NCBI GenBank assembly: GCA_016781925.1
Contig: JADDPH010000091.1
Location: 97,017 to 140,811 of the forward strand
Origin: Sphaerobacteraceae bacterium
GTDB lineage: Bacteria; Chloroflexota; Chloroflexia; Thermomicrobiales; UBA6265
Length of the DNA: 43,795 nucleotides
Direction: 5' to 3'
Shown here piece after piece: positions 3,609-39,918 of this stretch. Every line of letters starts with the position of its first letter. Positions within the stretch are counted from its first letter, which is position 1. A program made the translations under genes and the position numbers. The notes under the pieces were generated by a model that did not search any database, was not told where the DNA came from, and saw nothing but the letters and a program-made list of their open reading frames with translations.

Positions 3609-4115
3609 ATGGCGACTTCGCCATCCTCGTCTCCCGGAGGCGAAACTGGTCATCCGCGTCGGATCCTGGTGATCCACGGTCCAAACCTCAATTTACTGGG
3701 GACGCGGGAGCCTCATCTATACGGTGCCACGACCCTGAGCGAGTTGAACGAGTCGCTGCGGGACATGGGCAGCCGCGCATCCCCTCGGATGGAGGTCGAG
3801 ACATTCCAGTCGAACCACGAGGGCGCGCTGATTGATATGATCCAGGATCGTGGAGCGGGGTGCTGTGGTATCATCGCCAACCCGGGCGGACTGACCCACT
3901 CCAGCGTAGCCTTGCGCGACGCGCTCGCCGCTGTTGCGCGCCCCGTGGTGGAAGTTCACGTCACGAACATTCACGCCCGGGAAGCGTTCCGGCATCGCTC
4001 GCTCATTGCACCCATTGCGCTCGGTCAGATTGCCGGGCTGGGCATCGAAGGGTACCGTTTGGCCCTTCGCTTTTTCATCGAGCGGGAAGCCGCACGGGAG
4101 TCCTCGACAGCATGA
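3609..4115 (+). CDS. aroQ: Type II 3-dehydroquinate dehydratase
   Basis: Catalyses dehydration of 3-dehydroquinate to 3-dehydroshikimate, step three of the shikimate pathway. Family signatures are all present: ILVIHGPNLNLLGTREP, the catalytic-Tyr segment LYGATTL, FQSNHEGALID, IIANPGGLTHSSVALRDAL and VEVHVTNIHAREAFRHRS. The type II enzyme is a small dodecamer of about 146 residues; this one has 168 because of an extra Ser/Gly-rich N-terminal segment of about 17 residues before RRILVIHG. A GTG at 3603 overlapping the previous stop is an equally possible start. The 3' end overlaps the next gene by ATGA. Confidence 0.96.
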   Translation: MATSPSSSPGGETGHPRRILVIHGPNLNLLGTREPHLYGATTLSELNESLRDMGSRASPRMEVETFQSNHEGALIDMIQDRGAGCCGIIANPGGLTHSSVALRDALAAVARPVVEVHVTNIHAREAFRHRSLIAPIALGQIAGLGIEGYRLALRFFIEREAARESSTA

Positions 4116-5227
4116 GCCTCCGTCTGCAACGACTCCGCGATCTTGCAGCCGAGCGCCAGCTCGACGGAATCCTCGTCACCCATCCTTCCAACCGGTTCTA
4201 CCTCAGCGGCTACTCCGGTGAAGATGACCCTCCGAACGAATCAGCGGGGGTCCTGCTGATCGGCGCAACCACGGCGCTCCTGTTTACTGGGGCAACGAAC
4301 GTCGCGTGGGCTGAGGCGGAGGCGCCGACGTTCACCACCAAGCCCTGGACGCGGCCGTGGGCCGGTTTTCTCGTTCAGGTCCTGCGCGATCTGGGGTGGA
4401 AACGGATGGGGTTTGAGGACGACGCCGTTCTCTACGCGACCCACCGCGACCTTTGCGCCGGCCTTGACGGTCAGACTGAACTGGTTCCTCTCGGCGATGC
4501 GGTGGACAAACTGCGCTCTGTTAAAGAACCGGTAGAGCTGGAGGCATTGGCGAAGGCGATCTCAATCACCGACGCTGCCTTCGTCGCTGCCACAGCCGAT
4601 CTTGAAGTCGGCATGACGGAGCGCGATTTGGCGCGCCGGATCGAGCGGGAGCTGCGGGAGCGAGGAGCGGAGCGGGAGGCGTTTCACACCATTGTGGCCG
4701 CTGGACCCCACGCGGCTCGCCCCCATCACGCTCCGACGGACCGCCCCATCGAACGCGGCGAGCCTGTGATTATTGACATGGGCGCGCATGTGGACGGCTA
4801 CAACGGTGACCTTACGCGCACGACGTGGATCGGCCATCCGACCGAGGAACTACGACGGGTGTACGCTTCCGTCGAAGCCGCGCAGCGCGGCGCGTTGGGC
4901 GTGATTCGTGACGGCGTCGCGGCAAAGGACGTCGACGCGGCGGCCAGATCAATACTGACAGCCGCAGGCCTGGGCGAGGCGTTCAGTCACGGGGTTGGCC
5001 ACGGCCTCGGGGTGCGGGTACACGAGGCACCGAGCGCGGGTCAGATGTCCGAGGACATCCTTCACGCCGGCCAGGTTCTCACGGTGGAGCCCGGCGCTTA
5101 TCTCCCCGGCTGGGGCGGGGTGCGAATCGAGGACGTGGTTGTCGTCGAGCCAGGCGGCTACCGGATGCTCACCGGCGCCCCGAAGAAGCAGTCCGAGACA
5201 AGGGATACTGGAGGGACAACCGCATGA
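4112..5227 (+). CDS. pepP: M24 family Xaa-Pro aminopeptidase
   Basis: Cytosolic dinuclear-metal aminopeptidase expected to remove N-terminal residues preceding proline. The 371-residue product has a creatinase-type N-terminal domain (about 1-130) and a pita-bread catalytic domain. All five metal ligands of the M24 family can be placed: Asp in IIDMGAHVDGY, Asp in NGDLTRT, His in GVGHGLGVRVHE, Glu in TVEPGAYLPG and Glu in VRIEDVVVV. ATG 4112 is chosen because it overlaps the aroQ stop (ATGA) and precedes MSLRLQRLRDL; the frame is open further upstream but only inside aroQ. Placement directly before efp is a common bacterial arrangement. Compare the degenerate M24 protein at 37514-38683. Confidence 0.93.
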   Translation: MSLRLQRLRDLAAERQLDGILVTHPSNRFYLSGYSGEDDPPNESAGVLLIGATTALLFTGATNVAWAEAEAPTFTTKPWTRPWAGFLVQVLRDLGWKRMGFEDDAVLYATHRDLCAGLDGQTELVPLGDAVDKLRSVKEPVELEALAKAISITDAAFVAATADLEVGMTERDLARRIERELRERGAEREAFHTIVAAGPHAARPHHAPTDRPIERGEPVIIDMGAHVDGYNGDLTRTTWIGHPTEELRRVYASVEAAQRGALGVIRDGVAAKDVDAAARSILTAAGLGEAFSHGVGHGLGVRVHEAPSAGQMSEDILHAGQVLTVEPGAYLPGWGGVRIEDVVVVEPGGYRMLTGAPKKQSETRDTGGTTA

Positions 5228-33349: not shown

Positions 33350-34606
33350 GTGGAGGACCACGAGTTGGCAGGGATGAATGGATCAACGCCAGTGAGAGAG
33401 GCCATCCTAGGGGCGGCTCCCGCCTTTTACGGTGCCATGACGCAGTTCGCCGAGCGCCTCGTCCAGACGCCCAGCATGCCGGGCGAAGAGGGCGACATCG
33501 CCGACATCGTCGCAGAGACCATGCGCTCCCTCCAATACGACGACGTCTGGCGCGATGGCGCGGGCAACATCATCGGCGTCCTTCGTGGCACTGCCTCAGG
33601 ACCCACCGTTCAATTTAACGCGCACCTTGACCATGTATCGCCCGGCGCACACACCCTATGGGCCCGCCCTCCATACGGCGGCGTGATTGAGAAGGACATC
33701 CTCTACGGGCGAGGCGCATCAGACGTGAAGGGGGCTCTGGCCTCCCAAGTCTTCTTGGTCCCTGTGCTGCGGGGAGCCGGACTGCGGCCCGCGGGCGATG
33801 TCTACGTCACCGGAGTCGTGCTGGAAGAGGTTGGTGGGTTTGGCAGCGAGTACCTCGCGAAGGAGATGCCGACGACCTACGCCGTCCTGGCCGAGGCCAC
33901 GAACAACCAAATTTGCCGTGGACACCGGGGGCGTACCTTCGTCAGGGTGACATTCACGGGTCTCTCCGTGCACGCGAGTGCGCCAGAGCGGGGCGGAAAT
34001 CCCCACTTCGCCGCCGCGCGGTTCCTGCTGGGTCTCCGTGATCTGCCCATGGTCACGCACCCGACCTTCGGTGCGTCGAGCGTCGCCCCGACGCTGATCG
34101 AGACCGATCAAACGAGCGGGAATGTGACCCCGGGCACCGTCTCGTTGTTTTTGGATTGGCGAAACGTTCCCACCGAGGGCGTCAACGAGATTTTCAGCGG
34201 CTTGGAGCCGATCCTCCGGGCAGCCGAGGCTGACGCACCCGGCGTGACCGGAACGATGGAGGCGGTCGGGCGACCCGTGCAAAGCTACACCGGCCTGTCC
34301 GCCACGATGCCACCGACCCGGGGGTTCGAGACCAAGGAGGAAGACCCAGTGCTCCTTGCCGCCCACAAGTGTTTGGAGCATGTGCTGGACCGTCCGGTCG
34401 ACATTGGAACCTGGACCTTTGCCACGGACGGAGGCCACCTGGCTCACCACGGAATCACGACGATCGGATTTGCCCCTGGTGAAGAGCGGTTCGCCCACAC
34501 CATCCATGACCAGGTTGACCTCGGAAAGATGCGTGAAGCCCTGGCCGGGAATGCGGCACTCGCCCTAGCATTGACCTCCCTCGAAAGCCCGAGGAATCCC
34601 GTGTGA
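33350..34606 (+). CDS. M20 family peptidase, YgeY-like
   Basis: The 418-residue metallohydrolase has a complete zinc site: His in NAHLDHVSPG, Asp in GRGASDVKGALAS, Glu-Glu in VVLEEVGGFGS, an acidic residue in AEATNNQICRGHRG, and His in RFAHTIHDQVDLG. The C-terminal pattern WTFATDGGHLAHHG followed by ITTIGFAPGEERFAHT is typical of the YgeY/ArgE-like branch, whose members hydrolyse acylated or carbamoyl amino acids. It differs in sequence from the M20 protein at 16930-18102. Start GTG 33350 (AGAGGG about 10 bp upstream) or ATG 33374. The 3' end overlaps moaB by GTGA, yet no link to molybdenum cofactor synthesis is obvious. Confidence 0.9.
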   Translation: MEDHELAGMNGSTPVREAILGAAPAFYGAMTQFAERLVQTPSMPGEEGDIADIVAETMRSLQYDDVWRDGAGNIIGVLRGTASGPTVQFNAHLDHVSPGAHTLWARPPYGGVIEKDILYGRGASDVKGALASQVFLVPVLRGAGLRPAGDVYVTGVVLEEVGGFGSEYLAKEMPTTYAVLAEATNNQICRGHRGRTFVRVTFTGLSVHASAPERGGNPHFAAARFLLGLRDLPMVTHPTFGASSVAPTLIETDQTSGNVTPGTVSLFLDWRNVPTEGVNEIFSGLEPILRAAEADAPGVTGTMEAVGRPVQSYTGLSATMPPTRGFETKEEDPVLLAAHKCLEHVLDRPVDIGTWTFATDGGHLAHHGITTIGFAPGEERFAHTIHDQVDLGKMREALAGNAALALALTSLESPRNPV

Positions 34607-36742: not shown

Positions 36743-37447
36743 ATGGTGGAATCGACACCAGAAGCGTTTCAGGTCTACATGCTCGTCGTCGCCCATCCAG
36801 ACGACTCCGAGTTTTCCTCGGCGGGCACAGTGGCCCGCCTTTGCCAGGACGGGAAACGCGTCATCATCATTCAGGTAACCTCGGGGGATCGGGGAACGTC
36901 TGATCGGTCTGTCCACCCCGACGAGCTTGCCGCCACGCGTGAGGCAGAGCAGTTGGAAGCTGCTCGCCGCCTTGGGGTGGCCGAGGTGGTGTTCCTGCGG
37001 TGCAAGGATGGCGGATTGGTGCCGGATCTCGATCTTCGGGAGAAGGTCGTGCGGATGATTCGAATGCACCGCCCCGACGTGGTTATCACCCACGATCCCT
37101 TCAGACCCTATGCGTTTCATCCCGATCATCGTGCGGTCGGCTTTGCCACCCACGACGCCGTCTACCCCACCGCCCGCGACCACCTCTACTTTCCCGAGCA
37201 CCTTGAGGAGGGCTTGGAACCCCACAAGACCGCTGAGATTTGGTACTTCGGGGCGGAGACGCCCGATAAGTTCGTGGACATTACGGGCACATTTGATACC
37301 AAGATTGACGCGTTGATGGCCCACGTGAGCCAGGTCGGCAGCGCAGAGACCCTCCGGGAGAGGATGCGAGAGCGAGCAGCAGAACTTGCGAGCGGACAGG
37401 ACTTCGAGCTCGCGGAGGCGTTCAAAGTGGTGCATATGCGGCGGTGA
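36743..37447 (+). CDS. PIG-L family deacetylase
   Basis: Zinc-dependent N-deacetylase of the LmbE/PIG-L family, acting on N-acetylglucosamine-type or related small molecules. The 234-residue product has the zinc motif VVAHPDDSEF, VTSGDRGTS, TREAEQLEAARRLGV, VVITHDPFRPYAFHPDHRAV (third His of the site) and a C-terminal helix. ATG 36743 is preceded by AAGGAG 12 bp upstream; the frame is open to 36632 but those codons do not resemble the family. It heads a probable three-gene unit with the M24-fold protein and the galactokinase-like gene. BshB-, MshB- and chitobiose-type enzymes belong here, so the substrate is open. Confidence 0.92.
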   Translation: MVESTPEAFQVYMLVVAHPDDSEFSSAGTVARLCQDGKRVIIIQVTSGDRGTSDRSVHPDELAATREAEQLEAARRLGVAEVVFLRCKDGGLVPDLDLREKVVRMIRMHRPDVVITHDPFRPYAFHPDHRAVGFATHDAVYPTARDHLYFPEHLEEGLEPHKTAEIWYFGAETPDKFVDITGTFDTKIDALMAHVSQVGSAETLRERMRERAAELASGQDFELAEAFKVVHMRR

Positions 37448-37513: not shown

Positions 37514-38683
37514 ATGGATCGCGCGCGTGAGTTTCGGGCGAAACACGGGCGGGTCGTCGGGTTCCTGGAGCAGGCTGGACTCGACGGCATACTGCTCCGG
37601 ACACGGTCGAACCTATCTTGGCTGGGGTCAGGACCGGCTGATGGAGCGTCCCTCGACGCGGTTCAGGGATCGCGCTCCGAGATTTGGCATCAGTCCGATA
37701 CCGGCGTGATGGCGTTTGTCGTTTCCCGCGAACGCGTCACGCTCGTAACCGAAAATATCGAGTTGCCTCGCCTCCTTCGGGACGAGTTCCCGGACCTCGA
37801 CCTTGATGTTGTGGCGCAGCCGTGGCACGAGAGCGATGTCGTCCGAGCCACGGTCGACAGCTTGCCAGGTCCGCACAAACTTATTGGCACGGACCTCGCC
37901 GACGCCCCGCTCGTGCAAGCCTTCCAGAACCACGGTGTCTCCCTGGTTGACCTCCGGGACCAAATCACCGAGCTCCGCGCCAGCCTCCTGCCGAGGGAGT
38001 TGGAGCGATACCGTTGGCTCGGCGCCACCGCCTCCGTCGTGATGACCGAGGTCTGCCGCGAAATTCGCCCCGGCACGCCTGAGTCAGCCGTCGTGGCGGA
38101 CGCTCACCGGCGGCTGCGCAAGGTGGGCATCGCCCAGGAGGTCGATATTGTCTGCGCCGACGACCGGCTCTGGCAGGATCGGCATGGCTTGTACAGCGAC
38201 CGTCGGATCGAGCGAGTGGCGATGGTGGTCTTCTGCGCTCATAAATGGGGCCTCGTCGCGAACCTGACGCGAATGATCCACTTCGGCCCGGTCCCGGATT
38301 CTTTGGCCGATCGCCATCGTGCCATCGCCAATCTCGACCGGCGGATCATGGACGCGACAACTCCAGGTGTCGCCCTCGCCGACATCTTCACCGGCACCCT
38401 CATCCCCGGGTATGCCGACATCGGCGAGCCTGACGCCTGGCGCGATCACCACCAGGGCGGCTCGACGGGATACAGCGGCCGGGACCAGCGGGTCACGCCC
38501 ATGACAGAGGGCACGGTCCAGATCAATCAGGCGTTCGCGTGGAACCCGTCACTCCCAGGGGCCAAGAGCGAGGATACCTTTGTGACCACGGAACGGGGCG
38601 CGGAGGTGCTCACCCTCGACGACGCCTGGCCGCGGTACGAGGAGTCGGGACGCCCAGCGATCCTTTCCCTAGGCACCCGGTGA
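37514..38683 (+). CDS. M24 peptidase-like protein with degenerate metal site
   Basis: The 389-residue protein has the two-domain architecture of Xaa-Pro peptidases: an N-terminal creatinase-like domain (LEQAGLDGILLRTRSNLSWL) and a pita-bread domain preceded by LRASLLPRELERYRWLGATA. In active M24 enzymes the ligands are D-D-H-E-E. Here the Asp pair is replaced (MVVFCAHKWGLVANLTRMIH), the His loop reads RDHHQGGSTGYSGRDQ, the first Glu is Asn (VQINQAFAWNPSLPG), and only the last Glu remains (AKSEDTFVTT). It is therefore probably a non-peptidase member, perhaps creatinase-like, or a binding protein. ATG 37514 has GGAGG upstream. It overlaps the kinase gene by GTGA. Confidence 0.88.
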   Translation: MDRAREFRAKHGRVVGFLEQAGLDGILLRTRSNLSWLGSGPADGASLDAVQGSRSEIWHQSDTGVMAFVVSRERVTLVTENIELPRLLRDEFPDLDLDVVAQPWHESDVVRATVDSLPGPHKLIGTDLADAPLVQAFQNHGVSLVDLRDQITELRASLLPRELERYRWLGATASVVMTEVCREIRPGTPESAVVADAHRRLRKVGIAQEVDIVCADDRLWQDRHGLYSDRRIERVAMVVFCAHKWGLVANLTRMIHFGPVPDSLADRHRAIANLDRRIMDATTPGVALADIFTGTLIPGYADIGEPDAWRDHHQGGSTGYSGRDQRVTPMTEGTVQINQAFAWNPSLPGAKSEDTFVTTERGAEVLTLDDAWPRYEESGRPAILSLGTR

Positions 38684-39918
38684 GCGCGGATGTGACGGCG
38701 GCTCCAGCGACGACGCGTGCCCTCGCTGGAGCAAGAACGGCCTATGGGGAGGACTGGGCACCCTCCGTGCGGGCCATAGCGCCCGGCCGGATCGAACTCC
38801 TCGGCAATCACCTGGACTACAACGGCGGCCCTGTGTTGGCAGCGGCCATCAACCGGGTTGTCACGGTGCTGGCGAGGGACCTAGAAGGGGCGGACAGCCG
38901 CATTCGTGTGGTGGCCACGGACGTCGGAATGGGTCCCGAAGAACTCCAGGTCACGACACTGGCGGGGTGGCGCCATGGTGCTCCCCCGGCCAGCCCCTTC
39001 GATTATGCGCGGGGACTTGTCGCGGCGGTGCAGGAACGGCCGGGCCTAGGGCTCCGGATCCCCTCGGAGATCACGTTCGCCGGGGACGTACCGATCGGGT
39101 TCGGGTTAAGTTCGTCCGCCGCCCTCTGCGTTGCCCTTGCCTCAGCACTGGTTCGGCGGCCGTTGGAGGTGAAGCAATGGGTGCTGCTGGCTCAGGAGGC
39201 GGAGCACCGGGCAGGAACGCCCTGCGGCACCATGGACCAAGCGGCCTCGGTCGCGGGCGGGGTGATCCGATACGACGCCGCCACGCTGGCCGTCGAACAC
39301 CTTCGGCCTGATTTGGGCAACCTGACGTTCATCGTGGCCGACTCCGGCGTAGATCGATCCCTCGGCGCCTCCGCTTACCCCACCCGCGTCTCGGAAGCGG
39401 GCCAGATCCTGGAAATGGCGAAAGGGACGTTCAGAGAGGACATCCCACATTTGGCGGCAATCGATCGGGACCAGATGGACCGCCTCATCGCGCACGGATT
39501 AACGCCTGTACTCAGCCGCCGACTGCTCCACATCGTCTCGGAAGCCCAGCGGGTGGAGCTGGGAGTGGCAGCGCTTCGCCAGAGCGACTGGCCGACCTTT
39601 GGCGACCTCATGACGGCATCCGGCCTCTCATCGGCGACCGACTATGACGTGAGTCATCCCCAGGTGGAAGAGCTCGTCGGCCACATTTTGGCAGTGGAGG
39701 GCGTTCTTGGGGCAAGAATGATGGGCGGGGGTGGGGGCGGCACCGCCCTAGCCCTCCTCCCCAGCGACCGGGTCGGCGCTTTAGAAGCGGCTCTCCGCCA
39801 AAGCTACTACGCCCGCTACGGCATGAACGATCGCCAGGATCTCGTTCAGCGGTGCGCGTTCGCGCCGGGAGCCCGTGTCGAAACCGAGTCCCTTACCGCG
39901 GCCGATGTGGAGCGATAA
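38680..39918 (+). CDS. Galactokinase-like GHMP kinase
   Basis: Phosphorylates a sugar (probably galactose or a related hexose/amino sugar) with ATP. The 412-residue protein shows the substrate motif APGRIELLGNHLDYNGGPVL, the GHMP ATP loop VPIGFGLSSSAALCVALA, the catalytic-base region GTPCGTMDQAASVAGG and the C-terminal MMGGGGGGTALALLP. Classical galactokinases have GEHTDY; here Asn replaces Glu (GNHLDY), as in the GNHTDH of some Bacteroidetes/Firmicutes enzymes. No galT, galE or galM is near. GTG 38680 overlaps the M24 stop (GTGA); the frame is open upstream to 38539, inside the M24 gene. Confidence 0.85.
   Translation: MSADVTAAPATTRALAGARTAYGEDWAPSVRAIAPGRIELLGNHLDYNGGPVLAAAINRVVTVLARDLEGADSRIRVVATDVGMGPEELQVTTLAGWRHGAPPASPFDYARGLVAAVQERPGLGLRIPSEITFAGDVPIGFGLSSSAALCVALASALVRRPLEVKQWVLLAQEAEHRAGTPCGTMDQAASVAGGVIRYDAATLAVEHLRPDLGNLTFIVADSGVDRSLGASAYPTRVSEAGQILEMAKGTFREDIPHLAAIDRDQMDRLIAHGLTPVLSRRLLHIVSEAQRVELGVAALRQSDWPTFGDLMTASGLSSATDYDVSHPQVEELVGHILAVEGVLGARMMGGGGGGTALALLPSDRVGALEAALRQSYYARYGMNDRQDLVQRCAFAPGARVETESLTAADVER

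Follow-up and report, generated by a model that had tools for sequence, protein, structure and literature searches.

What might a protein with the fold of an M24 metallopeptidase do in an operon of sugar genes, once its metal site is gone? The question is raised by an open reading frame on the forward strand (37514..38683, ATG start, 389 aa) of the window, the whole stretch of 43,795 nucleotides that we analysed from a Sphaerobacteraceae bacterium of the Chloroflexota. We label this protein and its family M24*, for an M24-fold protein without a metal site. Peptidase_M24 (PF00557) is the sole Pfam family over threshold in the window protein (1.8e-7, residues 169-293); there is no match to PF01263, the family of GalM. 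The neighbours described in the initial annotation are indeed in place. The gene for a PIG-L (GlcNAc-PI de-N-acetylase family) protein (36743..37447, forward strand; PF02585, 1.4e-32) ends 66 bp upstream, and the stop codon of M24* overlaps the start codon of a sugar kinase gene in a GTGA at 38680-38683. This downstream gene (38680..39918, forward strand) encodes a galactokinase-type GHMP kinase (PF10509, 7.8e-15), which reaches 175 bits vs the NCBIfam galactokinase equivalog cut-off of 227 bits. The order of PIG-L, M24* and kinase recurs in four relatives (L002, L004, L054 and L055). A partnership with PIG-L as the key to function was set aside, as the neighbour survey places this adjacency mainly in the window's own lineage. 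The window further contains a paralogue (4112-5227) that is a canonical M24 dipeptidase and has the full set of metal ligands, and an M20 hydrolase (33350-34606) that is close to the selenium-metabolism-linked YgeY model (235 bits, cut-off 321) and has a MoCF-type protein and HisRS downstream of it.

The family search of the collection returned at least 568 M24* relatives, and the best 80 of these span many phyla; further copies are found on plasmid records from Thermus, Nostoc, Pantoea and haloarchaea. Two sets of sequences were used to judge conservation. Set A3 comprises the window protein and 71 of the 80 best loci (72 sequences); its members were fetched by the HHQGG and AWNPS patterns, so that these two motifs are biased in it. 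For set A2, loci whose translations contained errors were excluded, along with a number of others. The second set consists of 64 homologues (38 from Bacilli, 26 from Chloroflexota) picked by overall similarity alone, with identical rows and sequences shorter than 330 aa excluded. In the following, counts are given for the 72 and the 64 sequences in this order, and all codons lie on the forward strand.

M24 metallopeptidases are recognised by five ligands, Asp, Asp, His, Glu and Glu, and the window protein does not have this set. The ligand positions were mapped by aligning the family profile to Pyrococcus prolidases and to the canonical paralogue of the window. Both alignments bear out the proposal that four of the five ligands are lost, with only Glu353 kept, and the strings quoted for it, MVVFCAHKWGLVANLTR, DHHQGGSTGYSGRD and VQINQAFAW, are all found in the reading frame. 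One assignment had to be corrected: the first Glu ligand had been equated with Asn338, and its position is actually occupied by Gln339, one residue further on, because the Q339-E353 spacing of 14 residues equals that between Glu1 and Glu2 of prolidases. At the Asp1 position stands Cys241 (38234..38236; Cys in 53/72 and 53/64), an assignment that depends on our placement of a two-residue alignment gap. Asp2 is replaced by Asn250 (38261..38263), where nearly all homologues have Ser, Asn or Ala, the metal-ligand His by Gly316 (38459..38461; 72/72 and 64/64), and Glu1 by Gln339 (38528..38530; 69/72 and 58/64). The changes extend beyond the ligands. Arg323 (38480..38482; 72/72 and 64/64) takes the position of the second-sphere His in the HE motif of prolidases, and in the segment Lys351-Glu353 (38564..38572) the lysine replaces a prolidase Arg next to the retained Glu2, both residues being fixed in 72/72 and 64/64. 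Two histidines are candidate acid/base groups: the retained active-site residue His224 (38183..38185) and His313 of HHQGG (38450..38452), each found in 72/72 and 63/64.

The altered pocket is conserved throughout the family. A3 has 25 invariant positions. In the similarity-selected set, R86, W104, E190, R218, R223, R253, Y300, G315, G316, R323, W343, N344, P345, G349, K351, E353 and T355 are identical in 64/64 sequences, and W36, E83, H224 and H313 in 63/64. The question whether homologues keep HHQGG and the other altered residues can thus be answered positively in both sets, except for the first His of the motif: H312 is His in 43/64 and Leu in 21/64, and is therefore not essential. Conservation of the altered residues in both sets rules out decay or sequence error, and since it extends across phyla it upholds the preference for a metal-free activity or a ligand-binding role over decay. 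We also considered a peptidase with shifted ligands; this was rejected, as in the profile alignment three of the lost ligand positions hold neither Asp nor His and the fourth holds Gln. The sequences support the view that a widespread family has lost the metal site, and M24* would accordingly work without a bound metal.

The fold was described as full length, and this proved correct. An AlphaFold2 model of the window protein built with 72 aligned homologues has a mean pLDDT of 96.2 and a pTM of 0.94, and it superposes on the pita-bread fold of prolidases over about 350 residues (Z 34.7 for the best match, in which 350 residues align), followed by creatinase (Z 33.1-33.3) and EutD (Z up to 32.8). 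By sequence, canonical Xaa-Pro dipeptidases/prolidases come nearest among solved structures and also provide the best chains; no close relative was found there. Compared with prolidase and aminopeptidase P (M24B; 1wy2, Z 32.7; 1pv9, Z 30.8), M24* shares the full-length fold, and with the Pyrococcus prolidases also the His224 position and the second metal-ligand Glu, whereas Asp1, Asp2, His and Glu1 have become Cys, Ser/Asn, Gly and Gln, the second-sphere His has become Arg, and the Arg of VRIED has become Lys. Creatinase and ectoine hydrolase carry out metal-free acid/base catalysis in a pita-bread pocket, and creatinase presumably has a His at the position equivalent to H224. The likeness of M24* to creatinase (1chm, 1kp0, 7yto) and to the ectoine hydrolase EutD/DoeA (6twj, 6twk, 6yo9) is one of fold; sequence identity is 14-18%, and the M24* genes surveyed here lie in free-sugar operons, unlike creatine or ectoine clusters.

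Gene neighbourhoods point to free sugars. Our first sample comprised 122 M24* loci from Chloroflexota, genome contigs and plasmids; gene calling missed M24* in 10/122 of these and in 2/40 loci from Bacilli, and the neighbour counts exclude these loci as well as three duplicates (L001, L003 and L006). Operon neighbours in the first sample include galactokinase, FGGY kinases, L-fucose-isomerase-type proteins, AraA, XylA and class II aldolase, and further sugar ABC transporters, GalT and URO-D-like proteins. The gene is found as FucI-M24*-FGGY at L026, L037 and L121, as AraA-M24*-FGGY at L035, as XylA-FGGY-M24* on plasmid pVV8 of Thermus thermophilus HB8 (L051), as galT-galK-M24* at L063, and as galK-galT-GH42-galE-M24* at L086, an order that also holds in close relatives. 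Regulators of the ROK and LacI types commonly occur next to the gene, and some operons contain GMC, SDR or Gfo/Idh oxidoreductases. Sugar genes are more frequent near M24* than far from it (29/96 vs 20/261, p=3e-7), a comparison that is partly circular because the families were drawn from the same neighbourhoods. When the genes called in the 122 loci were searched with a profile from 20 GalM sequences, none proved to be GalM-like. Some lineages carry M24* beside RelA/SpoT, RdgB or SMC and not beside sugar genes, which counts against a role in sugar mutarotation. RdgB is the neighbour at L024, L025, L028 and L031, RelA/SpoT at L027 and three other loci, and SMC at L076, L081, L082, L093 and L114; M24* sometimes stands between galK and SMC.

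The 38 called copies from Bacilli, one of them from a relative outside the 299-genome set described below, are divided among 18 galactose, nine hexuronate, three xylose and two fucose-isomerase-type contexts, which together account for 32/38, and a remainder of four with other sugar genes and two with no sugar genes. The commonest order, galT-galK-galE-M24*-ROK, has M24* in the slot of galM; 18/38 copies lie beside galK and hold such a GalM-like position with galK, galT and galE, and GalM was absent within five genes of M24* in all 38. The families of the hexuronate clusters were checked and comprise UxaB, the KduI/IolB type, UxaA, KdgK and KDPG aldolase. In the clusters at L200, L207, L215, L225, L228 and L230, M24* repeatedly has a KduI/IolB-type cupin (PF04962) as its neighbour; this cupin may be their uronate isomerase.

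A free aldose is the entry point of all these sugar pathways, and galM is the one gene that the Leloir operons seen here lack; we therefore tested whether M24* replaces GalM. The p-values in these tests ignore kinship among genomes. Among 299 genomes of Bacilli, M24* was found in 37, PF01263 (Aldose_epim) in 167 and galactokinase (TIGR00131) in 161, and GalM is present in 12/37 carriers of M24* vs 155/262 others (p=0.0026). The 12 carriers with both count against the replacement. Within the galK-positive genomes the complementarity is sharper: Aldose_epim occurs in 10/30 with M24* vs 125/131 without it (p=2.7e-13), and only 6/161 have neither. When M24* was called inside the galactose operon itself (17 genomes), a single genome, G405, gave an Aldose_epim match, and a weak one (2.6e-28). 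At the level of operons, we compared 80 galK loci from Bacilli of about 15 kb each (roughly every second one listed, and four more): 12 have M24* alone, 18 GalM alone, none both and 50 neither (p=0.059). By parsimony on the galK tree of these loci, the presence of M24* changes seven times and that of GalM eight times, so that no single clade accounts for the pattern.

The complementarity is weaker in Chloroflexota, and this test is a weak one. Here, 301 genomes gave M24* in 45, Aldose_epim (PF01263) in 100 and the galactokinase signature in 207. Carriers of M24* are more often galK-positive (41/45 vs 166/256 others, p=2e-4), and within the galK-positive genomes GalM accompanies M24* in 10/41 vs 73/166 without M24* (p=0.03). 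Over all 301 genomes, depletion of GalM in the carriers was not significant (11/45, p=0.23). Two facts from this phylum count against a mutarotase: 93 galK-positive genomes have neither M24* nor GalM, and Aldose_epim is present in those 11/45 carriers, the genome of the window among them. Its Aldose_epim gene lies at a contig end (G000:C10:25-783). Of 22 M24*-carrying genomes, the majority of them picked for their sugar operon, 16 lack PF01263; RbsD/FucU is present in 10/22 of the same selection, which again counts against a mutarotase.

A closer view is offered by the family of Bacillus sp. NTK071, with 15 genomes. M24* is found in 10/15, all 10 are galK-positive and none has a full-length GalM; a full-length GalM (E<1e-80) is present in exactly the three galK-positive genomes without M24* (G382, G384 and G387), and the two galK-negative genomes have neither. 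Two of the carriers (G383 and G388) have a weak Aldose_epim gene of about 1e-26. The operon of the carriers reads LacI-type regulator, galK, galT, GH42, galE and then M24*, and the same gal operon stops at galE in the three genomes with GalM. G384 stands apart from G382 and G387 on the galK tree (some supports are low), which suggests two events. Against the mutarotase reading, the GalM of these three genomes lies outside the gal operon. Moreover, the galactose operon of G389 has all its other genes but ends in a disrupted M24* (L339, G389:C7), which matches a relative in two stretches, residues 1-233 and 340-365, and GalM was not found in this genome; this counts against a strict need for the function.

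Considering the predicted fold, the conserved non-metal pocket, the galM-slot position and the distribution complementary to GalM, we judge it probable that the substrates of M24* are free aldoses and that it is, most likely, an aldose 1-epimerase (mutarotase) that replaces GalM. In such an enzyme, the conserved Arg/Lys/Trp set R218, R223, R253, R323, K351 and W343 would hold the sugar, and H224, H313 and E353 are candidates for the acid/base catalysis that would open the pyranose ring. This would supply the anomer that galactokinase, or the isomerase for xylose, arabinose, fucose or uronate, requires. Both the reaction and the catalytic residues are putative, the latter modelled on creatinase and ectoine hydrolase. 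As the window protein shares the fixed residues of the family, it likely catalyses the same kind of reaction as the other members, and it may do the same job as the copies in Bacilli.

Other explanations need to be weighed against a mutarotase. It is unlikely that M24* is a metal-free hydrolase acting in the manner of creatinase or ectoine hydrolase on a sugar derivative, such as a glycosylamine, lactone or acyl-sugar. The high rank of creatinase and EutD among the fold matches, the adjoining PIG-L deacetylase and the oxidoreductases of some operons would suit this proposal; however, galT-galK-galE operons contain no lactone or amide step, PIG-L is a neighbour mainly in a single lineage, and such a hydrolase is not expected to follow the absence of GalM. 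We regard as very unlikely a non-catalytic sugar-binding or regulatory protein, comparable to the use of the M24 fold in Spt16. The Spt16 domains do have the same fold (Z about 28-30) and ROK or LacI regulators often adjoin M24*, but those operons usually have this regulator of their own, many polar residues of the former catalytic pocket are fixed, and complementarity with an enzyme would be unexpected for a regulator.

A different isomerisation of free aldoses, either a C2, C3 or C4 epimerisation or an aldose-ketose conversion, would agree with the position of M24* beside isomerases and kinases of several pathways. We consider it highly improbable, since these operons already have an isomerase (XylA, AraA, FucI-type or KduI-type) and galE, and we know of no carbon epimerisation missing from the Leloir pathway. 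That M24* is a decaying or still-active metallopeptidase is barely credible, even if sequence databases name its relatives M24 family metallopeptidase: other residues stand at the ligand positions and are conserved across phyla, the frames are intact in nearly all copies, and a canonical M24 paralogue sits in the same window.

Returning to M24* as a mutarotase, two known kinds of enzyme provide the comparison. GalM (aldose 1-epimerase, PF01263) occupies the same slot of the galactose operon with a complementary genome distribution, and is an unrelated sequence family; its fold differs from the pita-bread fold. The RbsD/FucU mutarotases (PF05025) share the association with sugar operons and the reaction proposed here, although they belong to a different family and can co-occur with M24* in one genome. 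A search of mainly open-access literature and term searches in PMC2873477, PMC5902678 and PMC5507952 yielded no M24 protein tied to mutarotation or to a galactose operon.

We incline to the view that M24* is an unrecognised structural class of mutarotase: a metal-free pita-bread protein that occurs in many bacterial phyla and in haloarchaea under the name of a metallopeptidase. It may have displaced GalM in Leloir operons several times and may serve a broad range of aldoses, including galactose, xylose, arabinose, fucose-type sugars and hexuronates. If this is true, a peptidase fold was put to use in mutarotation, adding a second kind of metal-free pita-bread chemistry to that of creatinase and ectoine hydrolase. 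A large set of proteins named M24 metallopeptidases would then be misnamed, and the missing mutarotation step of galactose and other aldose pathways would be assigned to a gene in many bacteria.
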